A stretch of DNA of 6,437 nucleotides, taken from assembly GCA_001871015.1 (NCBI GenBank), contig MNUO01000038.1, forward strand, positions 1 to 6,437, written 5' to 3'. Of this stretch, positions 1 through 6,437 are shown one piece after another. A model generated the notes under the pieces. It made no database searches and was not told the DNA's origin. It worked only from the letters and a program-made list of their open reading frames with translations. The DNA comes from Candidatus Desantisbacteria bacterium CG1_02_38_46. GTDB taxonomy: Bacteria; Desantisbacteria; UBA1551; UBA1559. Position 1 is the first letter of the stretch. Each line of letters opens with the position of its first letter. The position numbers were made by a program, and so were the translations under genes.

Positions 1-347
1 TTGATATGGAAGCTGGTATAGAGCATCTTGGAAGGGGCACAGTAGAGGCAATTGATAAATTGATTGTGGTCGTAGAACCAGGAATAAGAAGTATTGAAAC
101 TGCTCGTAGAATAAAAAAATTAGCAGAAGATATTGGATTGAAAAATATTGCTATTGTAGAAAATAAAGTAAGGAATACATCGGACAGGAAATTCATTGAA
201 GAGAATCTTAATGAATTTGATATTCTTGGCTACATTCTATACGATGAAAAAATAATTGAGGCAGATTTAAAAAGTTTGCCACCATTTGAATATGCACCAG
301 AAATTCTTGAAGATGGAAAGAAAATAATTGAAAGATTGAAACAATGA
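1..347 (+). CDS. cooC: CooC-type nickel insertion ATPase, C-terminal part (5' end outside window)
   Basis: CooC is a cytoplasmic P-loop ATPase of the MinD/NifH class that helps load nickel into the active-site cluster of CO dehydrogenase. The reading frame is open to the left edge, so the gene starts upstream and only about the last 115 residues are present. The visible part opens with DMEAGIEHLGRGT, the switch II/Walker B-like signature I recognise from CooC proteins. It continues with LIVVVEPGIRSIETARRI and NIAIVENKV, the nucleotide-base-contact region of this fold. The deviant Walker A motif and the metal-binding Cys pair expected in CooC would lie outside the window. The methionine at position 6 is internal and is not the start. 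The stop overlaps the next gene's ATG (ATGA at 344-347), which implies translational coupling. Its place in a cluster with acsD and cooS supports the assignment. Confidence 0.9.
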   Translation, partial: DMEAGIEHLGRGTVEAIDKLIVVVEPGIRSIETARRIKKLAEDIGLKNIAIVENKVRNTSDRKFIEENLNEFDILGYILYDEKIIEADLKSLPPFEYAPEILEDGKKIIERLKQ

Positions 348-844
348 AAAAAATAATTTTTGTAGACATTAAAAAGTGTCTGGGATGTAAAACCTGTGAG
401 TTACAGTGCGCCGTGGCACACTCAAAATCAAAGGATTTATTAGGGGCTATTAAAGAAGAACCCCTGCCCCATTATAATGTTCAGGTAGAACAACTGGAGA
501 ATTTTATTGTGCCACTTCAGTGCCGGCACTGTGAAGATGCACCCTGTGCAAAAATTTGTCCAACACATGCAATTGAAAAATTGGGTGAGGAAGAACCTGT
601 TCTTTTTAATAAAGAAAAGTGCATTGGATGTAAATGGTGTATCCCTGTCTGTCCTTTCGGAATATTGAGGATGGATAAAAAAGGAAAGGTGCTCATAAAA
701 TGCGACCTCTGTATAGAACGATTAAAGAAAGGTGAGGAGCCGGCCTGCACTTCCTCCTGCCCAACCGGTGCACTCAAGTTTATTTCAGTAGAAGAAATTA
801 CCAAGGAAAGAAAAAAGAAATATCTGGTAGAACTTACAAAATAA
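344..844 (+). CDS. CooF/HycB-like ferredoxin with four [4Fe-4S] clusters
   Basis: A 166-residue soluble electron-transfer protein of the DMSO-reductase-B/HycB/CooF family. Sixteen cysteines fall into four groups: C12/C15/C18/C22, C60/C63/C68/C72, C93/C96/C99/C103 and C120/C123/C135/C139. That is the standard arrangement for four [4Fe-4S] clusters in this family. There is no Tat or Sec signal peptide, so it should act in the cytoplasm. The ATG overlaps the cooC stop and has only a weak Shine-Dalgarno sequence, so translation probably depends on ribosomes finishing cooC. In Rhodospirillum rubrum, CooF carries electrons from CO dehydrogenase to its partner enzyme. Here the protein sits between cooC and a diaphorase trio, about 4.5 kb from cooS, so a similar role between CooS and the NuoEF-like proteins is an inference. 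A polyferredoxin subunit for another oxidoreductase is the main alternative. Confidence 0.9.
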   Translation: MKKIIFVDIKKCLGCKTCELQCAVAHSKSKDLLGAIKEEPLPHYNVQVEQLENFIVPLQCRHCEDAPCAKICPTHAIEKLGEEEPVLFNKEKCIGCKWCIPVCPFGILRMDKKGKVLIKCDLCIERLKKGEEPACTSSCPTGALKFISVEEITKERKKKYLVELTK

Positions 845-845
845 A

Positions 846-893
846 AGGGAACGCCCTATTGTGAGGAGTTGTGAGATGTTGAGGTCTGACCCC
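846..893 (+). repeat. Dispersed repeat, copy A, running into the nuoE start
   Basis: This stretch aligns with copy B at 3212-3266. Both have AGGGA, a short palindrome, CCTATT, AGGAG, GTTGT, and then an identical 18 bases, ATGTTGAGGTCTGACCCC (876-893 here). The hairpin in this copy is short: AGGG 846-849, loop AACG, CCCT 854-857. The final GGTCTGACC is itself a small inverted repeat (GGTC/GACC). The short size, palindromes and two copies within 2.4 kb suggest a REP/MITE-like non-autonomous element. No transposase is in view, so its mobilising partner is unknown. Confidence 0.75.
863..868 (+). promoter_or_regulatory. Ribosome binding site that sets the nuoE start
   Basis: GAGGAG lies 7 bases before ATG 876. 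This makes 876 the likely start, in preference to the in-frame GTG at 861, which has no purine-rich sequence before it. The site lies inside repeat copy A, so the repeat provides both the Shine-Dalgarno sequence and the start codon. Confidence 0.8.
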
Positions 894-1379
894 ATTAAAG
901 TTAAAGAAATCCTGAAACACTACAAATATGAACAGAGTTCCCTCATTCATATTTTGCAAGATATTCAGGTAGAATATCGGTACCTGCCAAAAGAAACAAT
1001 GCTCTTTGTGGCTCGTGAACTTAAAATTCCTTTATCCAGAATATACAGTGTTGCCAATTTTTATAATGCCTTCAGTCTTAAACCGAAGGGAAAACATCTG
1101 ATAAGTGTCTGTCTTGGAACTGCCTGCCATGTCCGGGGTGGGAAAAGAATTGCCGAGGAAGTGGAAAGGACTCTCAATGTAAAATCCGGAGAAACAACCC
1201 CTGACCTTGAGTTTACACTGGAAACGGTCAATTGTCTTGGTGCCTGCGCACTTGGACCAGTAGTAGTTGTTGACGGACATTATTACGGACAGATGACTTC
1301 CTTGAAGATGAAAAAACTATTGTCCAGTTCAAAGGGTGGCAGAGGGAACGGAAAGAATGAAAAAGATAACAAATCCTGA
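876..1379 (+). CDS. nuoE: NuoE-like [2Fe-2S] thioredoxin-fold subunit of NADH oxidoreductase
   Basis: A 167-residue homologue of the 24 kDa subunit of complex I and of HydC/HndA of NAD(P)-linked hydrogenases. The N-terminal helical part (residues 12-70) contains the family's YLP and the IYSVANFYNAFSLKPKG segment. The thioredoxin-like domain holds the [2Fe-2S] ligands C79, C84, C120 and C124, with the canonical CxxxxC and CxxxC spacing. It partners with the NuoF-like protein encoded next and may take part in electron branching at the flavin. The first six residues, MLRSDP, come from the repeat element rather than from the family, and homology begins near residue 8 (VKEIL). The C-terminus ends in a low-complexity Gly/Lys/Asn tail (about residues 151-167) encoded partly in the overlap with nuoF, so it is probably not conserved. 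Confidence 0.93.
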   Translation: MLRSDPIKVKEILKHYKYEQSSLIHILQDIQVEYRYLPKETMLFVARELKIPLSRIYSVANFYNAFSLKPKGKHLISVCLGTACHVRGGKRIAEEVERTLNVKSGETTPDLEFTLETVNCLGACALGPVVVVDGHYYGQMTSLKMKKLLSSSKGGRGNGKNEKDNKS

Positions 1380-3210
1380 AAATCTTGAAATCCTCAGAAA
1401 TTCACTTATCAAACAAGAAAACCCTTCTATGACCTGTATCTCTGTATGCCTTGGTACAGGATGTCAGGCATCTGGCAGCAAAGATATCATTGAATCTCTA
1501 AAACAAGAAATTGAAAAGCAGAAATTGTCGGAAAAGATAAAAATAAAGAGTACCGGATGCCATGGTTTCTGCGAAAGAGGTCCAATAGTCGTTATCAGAC
1601 CTCGGGGAATATTCTATCAGAAAGTAAAACCAGAAGACATTGCTGAAATAATAAACAGGACAATTTTAAAAGGGGAGATTATTGACTCCCTCCTGTATGT
1701 AGAACCGAGCACTGGGAAAAAAGTAATATACGAACATGAAGTACCATTCTATAAAAAGCAGAACCGAATTATTTTTGGAAGCAACGGTTCTATTGACCCG
1801 ACCAATATTGAAGATTATATACGTATCGAAGGATATTCTGCTCTGTCCAGGACTATATTAAAAATGTCACCGGAAGAAATTATAGAAGAAGTAAAAAGAT
1901 CTGGCCTGAGGGGCAGAGGTGGAGGCGGATTTCCTACCGGCGTAAAATGGGAAAGCTGCAGGAATGCACATGGCGAACCAAAGTATATCCTATGCAATGC
2001 AGACGAAGGTGATCCGGGTGCTTTTATGGACAGAAGTCTTCTGGAAGGCAATCCCCATAGCATCCTCGAAGGAATGATTATTGGCGCTTATGCTATTGGC
2101 TCAAATGAAGGTTATATCTATGTCCGAATGGAATATCCCCTCGCAGTTGAAAGATTAAAAATTGCAATCGCACAGGCAGAAGAATATGGACTTCTTGGAA
2201 AAAACATACTTGGCTTGGGCTTTGATTTTACAATAAAAATCAATCGTGGGGCAGGTGCCTTTGTCTGCGGTGAAGAAACAGCCCTTATCCTTTCCATAGA
2301 AGGCAAAAGAGGGGACCCGAGACAGAGACCGCCATACCCTGCTCAGAAAGGTCTTTTTGGTAAACCCACAAACATAAACAATGTAGAAACCTGGGCAAAT
2401 GTTCCTCTAATAATAAACAGGGGCGCAGAATGGTATTCAAAAATAGGCACTGCTGAGAGTAAAGGGACAAAGATATTCTCACTTGTAGGCAAAATAAATA
2501 ACACGGGGCTTATTGAAGTACCAATGGGAATGACCTTGCGTGAAATTATATATGACATTGGTGGAGGAATTCCTGGTGGAAAGAAGTTCAAAGCAGTACA
2601 GACAGGTGGTCCTTCAGGTGGCTGTATCCCCGAAGAATTTATTGACCTGCCAGTGGATTACGATGAACTCACAAAAGTCGGCTCTATGATGGGTTCAGGC
2701 GGAATGATTGTAATGGATGAGAATACCTGTATGGTGGACATCGCTAAATACTTTCTCACCTTCCTTGCAGATGAATCCTGCGGCAAATGCGTACCATGCA
2801 GGGAAGGTGTCTTCAGAATGTTAGAAATTGTCACAGATATAACAGAGGGCAAGGGAAAAGAAGAAGATATACCCCTACTGGAAGAATTGTCAAAAACTAT
2901 TGTTGATACTTCCTTGTGTGCGCTTGGAGGAACAGCACCAAATCCAGTGATAAGCACAATAAAATATTTCAGAAGTGAATATGAAGCACATATAAAGGAA
3001 AAAAGATGCCCTGCCGGAGTTTGCAAGGCACTAATTTGCTATGAAATACTCGCTGATAAATGTACAGGATGCGGTGCTTGCTTGAAAGTCTGCCCGCAAG
3101 AAGCAATTTCAGGTGAGAAGAAAAAGGTGCATACAATTACTCAAGAAAAATGCATAAAGTGTGGAATCTGTATGGATACTTGCAGATTTGAGGCAATTGA
3201 AGTAAAATAG
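1357..3210 (+). CDS. nuoF: NuoF/HydB-like NADH-binding flavoprotein with extra Fe-S domains
   Basis: The NAD(H)- and FMN-binding subunit, 617 residues from ATG 1357. AGAGGGA at 1341-1347 serves as Shine-Dalgarno; an in-frame GTG at 1336 is possible but lacks a spaced one. Domains in order: a thioredoxin-like [2Fe-2S] domain (C31, C36, C68, C72); the FMN/NADH core with GRGGGGFPTG near 186-195, CNADEGDPGAFMDR near 213-226 and GAFVCGEETAL near 300-310; an SLBB domain around 380-435; the N3-type [4Fe-4S] site with C475, C478, C481 and C521; and a C-terminal two-cluster ferredoxin domain (C569/572/575/579 and C599/602/605/609). This is the HydB/HndC layout of NAD(P)-linked and bifurcating hydrogenases, longer than complex I NuoF (about 430-450 residues). 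The 23-base overlap with nuoE implies coupled translation. All key motifs look intact. Confidence 0.95.
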   Translation: MKKITNPENLEILRNSLIKQENPSMTCISVCLGTGCQASGSKDIIESLKQEIEKQKLSEKIKIKSTGCHGFCERGPIVVIRPRGIFYQKVKPEDIAEIINRTILKGEIIDSLLYVEPSTGKKVIYEHEVPFYKKQNRIIFGSNGSIDPTNIEDYIRIEGYSALSRTILKMSPEEIIEEVKRSGLRGRGGGGFPTGVKWESCRNAHGEPKYILCNADEGDPGAFMDRSLLEGNPHSILEGMIIGAYAIGSNEGYIYVRMEYPLAVERLKIAIAQAEEYGLLGKNILGLGFDFTIKINRGAGAFVCGEETALILSIEGKRGDPRQRPPYPAQKGLFGKPTNINNVETWANVPLIINRGAEWYSKIGTAESKGTKIFSLVGKINNTGLIEVPMGMTLREIIYDIGGGIPGGKKFKAVQTGGPSGGCIPEEFIDLPVDYDELTKVGSMMGSGGMIVMDENTCMVDIAKYFLTFLADESCGKCVPCREGVFRMLEIVTDITEGKGKEEDIPLLEELSKTIVDTSLCALGGTAPNPVISTIKYFRSEYEAHIKEKRCPAGVCKALICYEILADKCTGCGACLKVCPQEAISGEKKKVHTITQEKCIKCGICMDTCRFEAIEVK

Positions 3211-3211
3211 A

Positions 3212-3266
3212 AAAATAGGGACACATCCTATTTTAGGAGAGTTGTTGAATGTTGAGGTCTGACCCC
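3212..3266 (+). repeat. Dispersed repeat, copy B, with perfect hairpin and start of the NuoG-like gene
   Basis: This is the second copy of the element at 846-893. It starts with a perfect 8-base inverted repeat, AAAATAGG (3212-3219) and CCTATTTT (3227-3234), around the 7-base loop GACACAT. AGGAGA and GTTGTTGA follow, then the same 18 bases, ATGTTGAGGTCTGACCCC (3249-3266), that begin nuoE. It fills the whole gap between nuoF and the next gene and extends 18 bases into that gene's coding sequence in frame. Confidence 0.8.
3235..3240 (+). promoter_or_regulatory. Ribosome binding site in repeat copy B
   Basis: AGGAGA ends 8 bases before ATG 3249 and directly abuts the 3' arm of the 8-base hairpin (3227-3234). 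It supports the 3249 start. Hairpin folding could in principle affect access to it. Confidence 0.75.
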
Positions 3267-4037
3267 CTAAAGATTACCATTGATGGAATTGAAACTGAAG
3301 TTGAGAAAGAAACTACTATATTGCAACTGGCAAAGAAACTGGGTATTGAAATTCCAACGCTTTGCCATCACGATGCTATAAGCACCTATGGCGCCTGTCG
3401 CGTATGCACAGTGGAAGTCGGCATACCGCGCTCAGGAGGGGGAAAACGAACCCGGATGGTCACCGCCTGCAACTATCCTATTCGGGACAATGGATTAAAT
3501 ATCAATACAAAATCAGAAAGAGTGCTGGCAGTGCGCAAGATGATACTTGAATTACTTCTTGCCCGCTGCCCCGGCGTAAAACGGATTCAGGACATGGCAA
3601 AAGAATATGAAATAACTGAATCAAGATTTCCAATAGAAAATCCCGAAGAGGAATGCATCCTTTGCGGTCTGTGCACTCGGGTCTGTCAGGAAATTATTGG
3701 AAAAAGTGCAATCAGTCTCGTGGGCCGGGGATTTGAAAGAAAAGTACTCACTCCTTTTGATGAGCCATCTGAAGATTGCATTGCCTGTGGTGCCTGTGCC
3801 TATGTCTGTCCAACAGGTGCAATAAAGATTGTTCAGGAAGACGGAAAACTGACTATTAAAAACTGGAAAACCAGTAGAGAACTTGCAAAATGCCTGGAAT
3901 GTGGAGAATATGTTGGCTCAGAGGCAGTTCTGCAATATATAAAAGAGAGGGTTTCTCTGCCTGAAGACATTTTTAAACTCTGCGAAAAATGCCGAAGGAA
4001 GAAATTGCAGAAAGAATTGATAACTACAGGGAAATGA
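3249..4037 (+). CDS. Short NuoG/HydA-like Fe-S protein ([2Fe-2S] plus two [4Fe-4S], no catalytic domain)
   Basis: A 262-residue iron-sulfur relay protein resembling the N-terminal part of NuoG, HndD/HydA and NAD-linked formate dehydrogenases. After the repeat-derived MLRSDP, a plant-type [2Fe-2S] domain carries C39, C50, C53 and C74. The next segment, where NuoG/HydA proteins usually hold a His-Cys3 cluster, keeps only C107 (LLLARCPGVKR), so that cluster seems to be absent. Two [4Fe-4S] sites follow: C136/C139/C142/C146 and C177/C180/C183/C187. The C-terminal 50 residues have two CxxC pairs (C215/C218 and C245/C248) that could bind zinc or another cluster. No H-cluster or molybdopterin domain follows, so it probably passes electrons between the NuoEF pair and a separate catalytic enzyme. 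CO dehydrogenase is the candidate in this cluster. The N-terminal Met of the family (MKITIDG-like) has been replaced by repeat sequence. Confidence 0.9.
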   Translation: MLRSDPLKITIDGIETEVEKETTILQLAKKLGIEIPTLCHHDAISTYGACRVCTVEVGIPRSGGGKRTRMVTACNYPIRDNGLNINTKSERVLAVRKMILELLLARCPGVKRIQDMAKEYEITESRFPIENPEEECILCGLCTRVCQEIIGKSAISLVGRGFERKVLTPFDEPSEDCIACGACAYVCPTGAIKIVQEDGKLTIKNWKTSRELAKCLECGEYVGSEAVLQYIKERVSLPEDIFKLCEKCRRKKLQKELITTGK

Positions 4038-4053
4038 ATATTAAAATTGTGAT

Positions 4054-4058
4054 GGAGG
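4054..4058 (+). promoter_or_regulatory. Ribosome binding site favouring the 4064 start of the small gene
   Basis: GGAGG lies 5 bases before ATG 4064. The alternative starts at 4034 (ATGA overlap with the previous stop), 4049 (GTG) and 4052 have weaker or badly spaced purine stretches, so 4064 is preferred. Confidence 0.6.
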
Positions 4059-4063
4059 AAGAA

Positions 4064-4240
4064 ATGAAAGAGAAAAAAGTTCTTGGTGAAACATATGAAC
4101 CCGGAAAACCTGAAGGACCTTATAACTGGCGCAAGAAAATAAAAGAAAGAACCGAGATGATGAAATACCTGAAAGAGAATGAGAGGTACTGGTATTCAAA
4201 GGATTGGTACGGCAGCGAAAGAAGAAAGAATCCAGCATAA
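4064..4240 (+). CDS. Small charged protein of unknown function
   Basis: I do not recognise this gene. From ATG 4064 it encodes 58 residues; a start at 4034, overlapping the previous stop, would give 68. It is rich in Lys, Glu and Arg, has no cysteines, and has no membrane segment or signal peptide. It carries an aromatic patch near its end (RYWYSKDWYG, residues 41-50) and an N-terminal GETYEPGKPEGPYNWR stretch. The middle (about 22-40) looks helical. Reasons to think it is real are the strong Shine-Dalgarno sequence, a snug fit between its neighbours and a 24-base gap to acsD. It is open back to 3989, but that part lies inside the NuoG-like gene. It could be a small accessory or assembly subunit of the diaphorase or of CODH/ACS; nothing in the sequence decides this. 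Confidence 0.65.
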   Translation: MKEKKVLGETYEPGKPEGPYNWRKKIKERTEMMKYLKENERYWYSKDWYGSERRKNPA

Positions 4241-4264
4241 TAAACATAAAGAAAGGGGTAAAAG

Positions 4265-5203
4265 ATGGCAATTGAGATTCCAAAGATAAAATATTCAGGA
4301 AAAATAAAAGAAGTAAAACTTGGAAATGGAGAAAAGCAGATAACTGTTGGTGGAGAAACTTCTTACCCATTTCATCTGTTTGAAGGTGAAATGTTAAATC
4401 CTCCCCGAATTGCTATGGAGGTCTATGATTCACCCCCAGAAGAATGGCCGGAAACCTGTCTTGAACCATTCAAGGACGTAATCAATTCCCCTAAGGCATG
4501 GGCAAAGAAATGCATCGAGCAGTTCGGTGCCGACATGGTCTCTATACGGCTCATAAGCACTGACCCGAACGGAATGAATAAATCCACTGACGATGTTCTA
4601 CCTATCGTCCAGGAAGTAGCAGGCACAATAGATGTTCCGTTAATCATATGGGGTTGCGAGAACGATGATAAGGATGCTGAAGTCTTACCGAAAGTTGCTG
4701 AAGTCTGTCAGGACAAGAAAATAATTATCGGTCCTGCAACAGACAAAAATTATAAAAAGATTGGAGCGGCGTGCATTGCTTATGGACACACCATAGTCGC
4801 ATCAACTCCCATTGATATAAACTTAGCAAAGCAATTGAATATTTTATTGGGGGATTTGGGTGTTCCTGATGGACAGATTATCATTGACCTCAACATTGGT
4901 GGTTGTACCATAGGTTATGGATTGGAATATGCATACTCTGTAATGGAACGCCAGAGACAGGCTGCCCTTACTCAACAGGACGAAAAACTTCAATTTCCAG
5001 TGATTTGCAATTTTGCAAATGATGTCTGGAAAAAAAAAGAAGTTCAGATAGACGACCCGAAATTAGGTGATAAGAAAAATCGTGGAATACTGTTTGAGGC
5101 AATTACAGGATGGATACAACTCTTAGCGGGCGCCGATATTCTTGTTATGCGCCACCCTGAAGCTGTGAAATTATTAAAAGGAATGTTAAAACAATTAATG
5201 TAA
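4265..5203 (+). CDS. acsD: Corrinoid iron-sulfur protein small subunit (CODH/ACS delta subunit)
   Basis: AcsD (CdhD family) is a TIM-barrel protein that pairs with AcsC to form the corrinoid iron-sulfur protein, which carries the methyl group from methyltetrahydrofolate to acetyl-CoA synthase. The 312-residue length matches bacterial AcsD. Motifs I recognise from the Moorella-type protein are PFHLFEGE (35-42), RIAMEV (48-53), SPKAWAKKCIEQFGAD (75-90), DINLAKQLNIL (184-194), GYGLEYAYSVMERQR (217-231) and the C-terminal LVMRHPEAV (293-301). The Shine-Dalgarno AGGGG at 4254-4258 is 6 bases before ATG 4265. The AcsC, AcsB and AcsE partners are not in the window and should lie beyond cooS or upstream of cooC. 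A run of nine A at 5030-5038 encodes three lysines and leaves the frame intact. Confidence 0.95.
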   Translation: MAIEIPKIKYSGKIKEVKLGNGEKQITVGGETSYPFHLFEGEMLNPPRIAMEVYDSPPEEWPETCLEPFKDVINSPKAWAKKCIEQFGADMVSIRLISTDPNGMNKSTDDVLPIVQEVAGTIDVPLIIWGCENDDKDAEVLPKVAEVCQDKKIIIGPATDKNYKKIGAACIAYGHTIVASTPIDINLAKQLNILLGDLGVPDGQIIIDLNIGGCTIGYGLEYAYSVMERQRQAALTQQDEKLQFPVICNFANDVWKKKEVQIDDPKLGDKKNRGILFEAITGWIQLLAGADILVMRHPEAVKLLKGMLKQLM

Positions 5204-5216
5204 AAAATAATAAAAC

Positions 5217-5265
5217 GTAGTGGTCGAGCTTGCTCGACATTGGGCAGAGTAAACTCTGCCACTAC
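5217..5265 (+). repeat. Compound inverted repeat (two hairpins within an outer stem)
   Basis: GTAGTG at 5217-5222 is complementary to CACTAC at 5260-5265. Between them are two perfect hairpins: GTCGAGC/GCTCGAC (5223-5229 and 5232-5238) and GGCAGAGT/ACTCTGCC (5243-5250 and 5253-5260). The whole could fold as a three-way junction in DNA or RNA. The outer stem and the second hairpin compete for one base. No T-run follows, so it does not look like an intrinsic terminator. Matching ends and internal palindromes suggest a MITE/REP-type element. Confidence 0.8.
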
Positions 5266-5319
5266 ATTAGCGGCGTAAACTCTGCCACTACATTAGCGGC
5301 GTAAACTCTGCCACTACAT
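5250..5319 (+). repeat. 26-base tandem repeat, about 2.7 copies, upstream of cooS
   Basis: Units start at 5250, 5276 and 5302. Each begins TAAACTCTGCCACTACAT; the first two continue with TAGCGGCG and are identical over all 26 bases, while the third stops after 18. Each unit rebuilds an imperfect hairpin with the preceding GCGGCGT (5270-5276 with 5279-5285, and 5296-5302 with 5305-5311; one G-U pair and one C-U mismatch). The array ends 2 bases before the cooS Shine-Dalgarno region. Confidence 0.85.
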
Positions 5320-5332
5320 CAGAGGAGAAAAA

Positions 5333-6437
5333 ATGAAAGAAAAAAGCATTGATAAAGCAGTAAAACCTTTACTTGAAAAAGCAAAGAAGGAAAATGCGAA
5401 TCTTTCCTGGGATAGACTGAAAGAACAAATTCCCCAGTGCGGATTCGGAAAACTCGGGATTTGCTGCAGAATTTGCTCAATGGGCCCCTGCAGAATTGAC
5501 CCATTTAAAGAAGGTGCTCAAAAGGGTGTGTGTGGTGCAACTGCAGAGACAATTGCTGCACGCAATTTTGTCCGGATGATCGCTGGAGGTGCTGCAGCGC
5601 ATTCAGACCACGGCAGAGCAGTGGCAGAATTATTCATTACAACAGCACGTGGAAAAGCTCCAGGTTATGAAATAAAAGATGAACAGAAATTATTGCAGGT
5701 TGCTATGGATTTTGGAATAAATATTGAAAACCGCAAATTAGAGGAAATAGCCCTGGATGTCGGCAATATAGCTCTCTCTCAATTTGGGCAGCAAGAAGGA
5801 GAATCTATATTTATTAAAAAAACACCTTTGAAAAGACAGGCAATCTGGAAAGAACTTGGTGTTATTCCCCGTGGTATTGACAAGGAAATTGTTGAAATAA
5901 TGCACCGCACCCATATAGGTGTAGACCAGGATTATAAAAATCTTCTGCTTCAGGGCACACGCTGTGCACTCGCTGACGGATGGGGTGGTTCAATGATTGC
6001 AACAGAACTGCAGGATATTATGTTCGGTACACCTGTTCCATTGCTTGGAAGGGTAAATCTCGGGGTGCTTAAAGAAGATGAAGTCAACATAATCATTCAC
6101 GGCCATGAACCCCTCCTTTCAGAAATGATTGTTGTGGCAGCACAGGACAAAGAAATGTTAGAACTTGCAAAATCTAAAGGTGCAAAGGGAATAAATTTAG
6201 CAGGAATCTGCTGCACTGCAAATGAAATACTTATGCGACATGGAATACCAATAGCTGGGAATTTCCTTCAGCAGGAACTGGCAATTGTTACAGGAGCGGT
6301 AGATGCAATGGTTGTGGATGTGCAGTGTCTGATGCAATCACTTCCATCTGTCGCCCAATGCTATCATACGAAAATCATAACTACATCTCCAAAGGCAAAA
6401 ATTCCAGGGGCAATTCACATCCAGTTCGAAGAACACA
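5333..6437 (+). CDS. cooS: Ni-Fe carbon monoxide dehydrogenase catalytic subunit, N-terminal part (3' end outside window)
   Basis: CooS/AcsA interconverts CO and CO2 at the nickel-iron C-cluster; in acetogenesis it supplies CO to acetyl-CoA synthase. The frame is open to the window end, giving 368 residues of an expected roughly 630. The N-terminal cysteines fit the known pattern: C36 and C44 for the D-cluster shared between subunits (FGKLGICC), and C45, C48, C53 and C67 for the B-cluster (CRICSMGPC...GVCGAT). H90 and H93 in AAHSDHGR match the conserved His stretch near the active site. C-cluster ligands present are His in IHGHEP (256-261; H258 likely), C293/C294 in GICCTANE and C332 in VDVQC. 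The remaining C-cluster Cys residues lie beyond the window. GAGGAG at 5322-5327 lies 5 bases before ATG 5333. Whether it is the ACS-bound or a free form cannot be told without neighbouring acsB. Confidence 0.97.
   Translation, partial: MKEKSIDKAVKPLLEKAKKENANLSWDRLKEQIPQCGFGKLGICCRICSMGPCRIDPFKEGAQKGVCGATAETIAARNFVRMIAGGAAAHSDHGRAVAELFITTARGKAPGYEIKDEQKLLQVAMDFGINIENRKLEEIALDVGNIALSQFGQQEGESIFIKKTPLKRQAIWKELGVIPRGIDKEIVEIMHRTHIGVDQDYKNLLLQGTRCALADGWGGSMIATELQDIMFGTPVPLLGRVNLGVLKEDEVNIIIHGHEPLLSEMIVVAAQDKEMLELAKSKGAKGINLAGICCTANEILMRHGIPIAGNFLQQELAIVTGAVDAMVVDVQCLMQSLPSVAQCYHTKIITTSPKAKIPGAIHIQFEEH

Follow-up and report, generated by a model that had tools for sequence, protein, structure and literature searches.

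The window, as we call the whole 6,437-nt stretch of DNA analyzed here, carries an operon (1–6437) in which a HydABC-like NADH module (nuoE, nuoF and a nuoG-like gene) stands together with CODH/ACS-type genes, including an AcsD-like gene at 4265 and a CooS-like gene at 5333 (both named by eye), a gene content that suggests an acetogenic-type metabolism. Between the CODH/ACS genes, at 5220–5331, an inverted repeat (GTGGTCGAGCTTGCTCGACAT) precedes a 26-bp unit (GGCGTAAACTCTGCCACTACATTA) that occurs three times in tandem. The original prediction held that two genes of this operon, nuoE and the NuoG/HydA-like gene, open with the same 18 bases encoding MLRSDP, and a scan of the window bore this out: the 18-mer ATGTTGAGGTCTGACCCC is present without mismatch at 876–893 and 3249–3266, and a third copy was not found in the 6,437 nt even when three mismatches were allowed (chance expectation 0.01). 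The sequence common to both sites is longer than the 18-mer, comprising a 28-nt core, GAGTTGTnRRATGTTGAGGTCTGACCCY, and on alignment 840–893 and 3205–3270 are 79% identical (Table 1).

Table 1. Features at the two repeat sites of the window
Feature	Position	Strand	Remark
TAA stop, upstream 4Fe-4S ferredoxin-like gene	842..844	+	1 nt before composite repeat
Degenerate left part of composite, AGGGAACGCCCTATTGTGAG	846..865	+	alignable with second transposon-end repeat type
GGAG, putative Shine-Dalgarno	865..868	+	7 nt before ATG876
Solo transposon end (TIR), copy 1	866..893	+	outer tip CCCC at 893 adjoins nuoE coding homology
nuoE-like gene (2Fe-2S thioredoxin-like)	876..1379	+	predicted MLRSDP start inside repeat; PF01257 from residue 9
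TAG stop, nuoF-like gene	3208..3210	+	6 nt before composite repeat
Second transposon-end repeat type AATAGGGACACATCCTATTTT, left part of composite	3214..3234	+	7 genome copies, ≤3 mismatches
GGAG, putative Shine-Dalgarno	3236..3239	+	9 nt before ATG3249
Solo transposon end (TIR), copy 2	3239..3266	+	tip CCCC at 3266 adjoins coding homology
In-frame TGA	3246..3248	+	directly before ATG3249
NuoG/HydA-like gene (Fer2_4 + 4Fe-4S)	3249..4037	+	predicted MLRSDP start inside repeat; PF13510 from residue 5

The same repeat bounds a complete transposon of about 1 kb elsewhere in the host genome (1.73 Mb in 133 contigs, 87.8% completeness). On contig C109, an inverted pair of copies (6842–6868 and 7846–7872), the ends of which agree at 27 of 28 nt, flanks the gene (6886–7869) for a 327-aa transposase that contains the Y1/HUH core motifs NHYH and YIHLNP, a Y1_Tnp domain (PF01797, E=3e-13) and a C-terminal Bac_DnaA_C domain (PF08299, E=4.1e-12). 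Compared with the GGGGWSAS motif, the tip of the full element, AGGGTCAG, deviates by one base, and most solo copies read GGGGTCAG. Judged by these sequence features, the C109 element is a TIRtron with a predicted TIRYT transposase, matching subclass 2.1. Since the same repeat forms the ends of this TIRtron, the window repeats are solo transposon ends, and the proposal that the repeat is mobile can be made specific: it is the terminal inverted repeat (TIR) of the C109 transposon, in its right-end form. The identity of the ends and the dispersal of the copies suggest that the solo copies were mobilized by the TIRYT transposase.

One further TIRYT-like element, whose ends read AAAAAGGGGACG and whose transposase contains an in-frame TAA, was observed on another contig (C60:8440–9300, L044/L048). 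It fits exactly between the stop (TAAG) of an integrase-like gene and the ATG that opens a DHH-type gene, both named by eye. Separately, a distant genome (G025, C67:50105–50168, L128) contains an inverted pair of a related end, TTGTAAAATGTGTAGGTCTGACCCC, directly past the apparent counterpart of the window gene at 4265–5203, in the CODH/ACS operon.

An alignable stretch containing a palindrome had also been described in front of both starts. The stretch itself was recovered, an AGGGA...CCTATT block being recognizable at both sites (degenerate at 846–860, cleaner at 3217–3232); the palindrome, however, folds no better than shuffled sequences (z −0.7, −0.5, 0.16), and a hairpin function for the block was rejected. 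A better interpretation is that it belongs to a second transposon-end repeat, AATAGGGACACATCCTATTTT, which has seven copies of its own in the host genome (≤3 mismatches), two solo copies of which also close upstream ORFs (..KIGTAPIL and ..KIGTDTIF, each followed directly by the stop). The two end types are joined as a composite of about 50 bp only at both window sites and on contig C41. In the window composites (846–893 and 3217–3266), the ends AGGGACAC and CTGACCCC each conform to the GGGGWSAS type and do not match one another.

A pattern search of the host genome for the 28-nt repeat (≤3 mismatches) yielded 12 copies, spread over ten contigs; the reversed pattern, run as a control, had no hit. 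Five of the 12 provide in-frame gene starts, namely those of nuoE, the nuoG-like gene, a BadF/HgdC activase gene (C74), moaA (C127, where the peptide reads MLSSNP) and a peptidase MA/PD40 gene (C109). All five have GGAG 7–9 nt before the ATG, versus two of the seven other copies (Fisher p 0.027), and in four, all except nuoE, a stop codon stands immediately 5' of the repeat ATG. A usable native start is gone in four of the five genes; an ATG directly after the repeat is retained only by the C109 peptidase gene. Conserved domains begin 5–11 residues into the nuoG-like, BadF-like and moaA products. Within the C109 peptidase/PD40 gene (L058, 7856–10858), a unit of about 24 residues (YFDTPPTFNSRETRFLSEAKGSYC) is repeated three times in tandem and in frame, and resembles a further dispersed repeat inserted into the coding frame.

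Copies are likewise found at the ends of genes. Four reversed copies (C41, C57, C82 and the left copy on C109) lie 0–1 nt past an upstream stop codon, and the C33 copy encodes the last eight residues and the stop of a GGDEF protein; at the C133 copy, the downstream gene retains its own Shine-Dalgarno sequence and ATG. Because the reversed copies are flush with stop codons, the rule is better stated as gene boundaries, with starts accounting for about half. Two copies serve both sides of a boundary: on C109, the transposase ends (...ELLDVEV, then stop) in the right end of its own element while the MLRSDP start of the next gene lies in an overlapping frame, and on C127, one 28-bp copy both closes moeA (VELLNVEF, then stop) and opens moaA, the overlap being 14 nt in each case.

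Chance rates for such positions were taken from 158 kb of the host genome, using oriented intergenic points and our own ORF calls. Within this sample, 5.8% of intergenic points fall within −9 to +3 of a start, a third of them in frame, and 2.2% fall within 2 nt of a stop. On this basis, and with the C109 pair counted as independent copies although they do not represent two events, the genome-wide placement of copies is not random with respect to gene starts: five of 12 at starts gives p 4e-4 without a frame requirement and about 2e-6 with it. Counted in the same way, four of 12 at stops gives p 1e-4 under uniform intergenic placement. The original prediction of a portable translation-start cassette is largely upheld, with five in-frame starts that carry GGAG; copies also lie at stops, and the use of the repeat ATG in translation is read from sequence. 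A simple target site (A or C, then T, after the tip) was apparent by eye at eight of the 12 host copies; it was rejected, as it failed for the repeat family elsewhere.

Both ORFs in the window are open, and their next in-frame start codons past the repeat correspond to residues 27 (nuoE) and 25 (nuoG-like). In Pfam, 2Fe-2S_thioredx (PF01257) is matched by the nuoE product from residue 9, at model position 1, and Fer2_4 (PF13510) by the nuoG-like product from residue 5, at model position 2, so that a functional start is needed in, or just before, the repeat. In the case of the nuoG-like gene, the TGA directly 5' of ATG3249 requires that the start be within the repeat, while the nuoE frame is open up to GTG861, which leaves room for an upstream start there. 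From these frames and domain positions we infer that both genes are translated from the repeat ATGs. It could be argued that the repeat is a 5' leader only and that the genes start elsewhere, at GTG861 for nuoE or at downstream codons; the open nuoE frame, the ATG right after the repeat on C109 and the gene with its own Shine-Dalgarno sequence and ATG at C133 would fit. However, we consider this quite improbable, given the stop directly before the repeat ATG in the nuoG-like, BadF-like and moaA genes, the domains that begin 5–11 residues in and the internal codons, which are not preceded by a Shine-Dalgarno sequence.

A relative from the same order (G001) has the same operon, with a NuoE that is 79% identical, and the repeat is absent from its genome, including both sites equivalent to those in the window, where native ATG starts are found: ATGGAAGAT (MEDKKAREIL) for nuoE and ATGTTAAAG (MLKVTIDG) for the nuoG-like gene. 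The match of the relative to the window NuoE begins at residue 7, and the repeat stands where the relative has its native start: SDP (codons 4–6) is aligned with MED at nuoE, and P, the final codon, with M at the nuoG-like gene. The simplest reading of these alignments is that the repeat was acquired once the two genomes had diverged and that the native start has been lost, as had been proposed when the element was suggested to have replaced the native start in frame; vertical inheritance is contradicted by the closest relative, which has the operon and lacks the repeat at either site. Six residues common to two neighboring redox genes might also be taken for a conserved N-terminal motif, vertical or convergent, that involves no mobile DNA. 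This has a negligible probability and is already contradicted, since the DNA identity extends to non-coding upstream bases, reversed copies lie at stops, a transposon has the same ends and the relative lacks the repeat. An assembly or binning artefact, which the number of contigs and the incomplete assembly might suggest, is very improbable: the copies lie on ten or so contigs with differing flanks, one pair of them around a transposase, and both window copies are internal to an operon syntenic with that of the relative.

At TIRYT loci from many genomes, the left tips of full TIRtrons were within 12 nt of an upstream ORF stop in 18 of 45 cases, versus 3.6% at random positions. Downstream genes that begin in the right end were identified in the relative (L132, a polysaccharide deacetylase gene with a GTG start), in G072 (L199, MSRPDP followed by a tRNA nucleotidyltransferase) and in G065 (L200, with a GT2 domain from residue 11), and a native ATG directly past the tip is retained at C109, C60 (L044) and L134. 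Among copies of the window repeat family outside the host genome, we left out of the start counts L017, where a long ORF by its look is unlike known proteins, and L012, which has its own Shine-Dalgarno sequence and ATG. Over all TIRtrons, ORFs starting in the right end (12 of 45) did not exceed a random-position control (p 0.29), which is crude in that its positions lie mostly inside genes. With the bulk count at control level, the generality of start capture rests on individual, domain-supported cases. Dispersed start capture was seen in one host genome only: elsewhere, members of this repeat family do not lie at gene starts, and a GGAG-spacer-ATG-TIR arrangement is almost exclusive to the host genome, which accounts for six of the eight matches in 386 genomes, the other two not being gene starts.

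The overlap of 14 nt between the transposase stop (TGA in GTCTGACCC) and the ATG of the element is the basis for a further explanation, according to which the right end evolved as a stop-start cassette, selected for re-initiation, so that insertion in operons would have no polar effect and the ends could serve again as coupling junctions. The stop-start overlaps in the repeat at the C109 transposase and peptidase genes and at moeA and moaA are consistent with this, as is a transposase stop 4–6 nt from the tip in about a dozen other TIRtrons. However, most TIRtron right ends have no Shine-Dalgarno sequence before the ATG, most downstream genes start elsewhere, and compactness alone could account for the overlap of the transposase stop; we regard selection for re-initiation as rather unlikely. 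That TIRtrons target stop-start junctions, with a right end that would be a functional re-initiation module and an insertion that would be non-polar, and that in this lineage solo ends have turned into reusable start cassettes in place of the native starts of at least four core genes, is a possibility that we put forward tentatively.

We consider it likely that the right-end TIR of a TIRtron, spread as solo or composite (MITE-like) copies, settles at gene boundaries and becomes the permanent start of genes, an explanation that draws on the identity of the repeat, the transposon, the positions and frames of the copies, the forced starts and the empty sites of the relative. The source would be a TIRYT-type, IS200-like Y1/HUH transposon, the solo ends and short composite copies of which disperse and settle in operons just past a stop codon, a placement that in tight operons is directly before the next start codon. 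The right end would bring GGAG (7–9 nt off in this lineage), an ATG and a frame open to the tip (ATG TTG AGG TCT GAC CCC); upon in-frame arrival at a gene start, the ribosome would initiate on the element and the gene would gain MLRSDP, and the native start, now dispensable, would be lost, leaving the element as the permanent start. The copies would have arrived by insertion rather than by later rearrangement, and survivorship together with boundary-biased insertion may lie behind the enrichment. Simple insertion does not fully account for the loss of native ATGs beside unmutated repeats.

If these starts are used, mobile DNA has rewritten the initiation of core metabolic genes (those for NuoE, the NuoG-like protein, MoaA and the BadF-like activase), which now depend on the repeat, providing a concrete route from a short transposon remnant to an indispensable sequence. 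Use of the starts would also help explain the persistence of the repeat at gene boundaries and would suggest that TIRYT transposons avoid damage through insertion in the gap from a stop codon to the next start; furthermore, automated start calling may trim or mis-set such genes.

TIRtrons and TIRYT transposases have been described by Di Nocera et al. (2013, PMC3733652) and correspond to subclass 2.1 as defined by Quentin et al. (2018, PMC6006769). Like these, the C109 transposase is a Y1 HUH protein; it is 327 aa long, has the NHYH and YIHLNP motifs and ends in a Bac_DnaA_C domain (PMC3733652, PMC6006769), and the TIRs fit GGGGWSAS (GGGGTCAG), form moderate dispersed families and overlap the ends of the transposase gene (PMC3733652); unlike the TIRtrons described in the sections of these papers drawn on here, the repeat studied here appears to give a ribosome binding site and start in frame to several unrelated host genes. 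REP sequences and REPtrons (RAYT) are short dispersed repeats tied to Y1 transposases and often located just 3' of stops (PMC3733652; PMC12306157). Our repeat is similarly dispersed, Y1-associated and found at stops, but its consensus has neither a REP-type GTAG or CGTC tag nor a strong palindrome (its hairpin is not significant), and copies also form starts. Rickettsia palindromic elements (RPEs) and ORF-bearing MITEs are small mobile repeats whose translation is in frame with that of host proteins (PMC2229807), and some RPE-1 copies are at N-termini, as mentioned in PMC3733652. Whereas RPEs are palindromic inserts of 100–150 bp inside ORFs, the repeats here are 28–50 bp and lie at gene boundaries; RPEs and MITEs add internal or terminal peptides, often of at least 20 residues, while here the native start gives way to six residues with a Shine-Dalgarno sequence and a start codon, and the source transposon has been identified. 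The 14-nt overlaps at moeA/moaA and at the transposase and peptidase genes resemble translational coupling junctions, except that here a dispersed mobile sequence, and not a gene-specific one, forms the junction. In the open literature we found no account of a dispersed transposon end that provides several unrelated genes with their ribosome binding site, start codon and initial codons. REP or TIR repeats by stop codons and repeat-encoded peptides inside proteins or at their N-termini are already known (PMC3733652, PMC2229807, PMC12306157), while the role of a dispersed repeat as a start cassette looks new.
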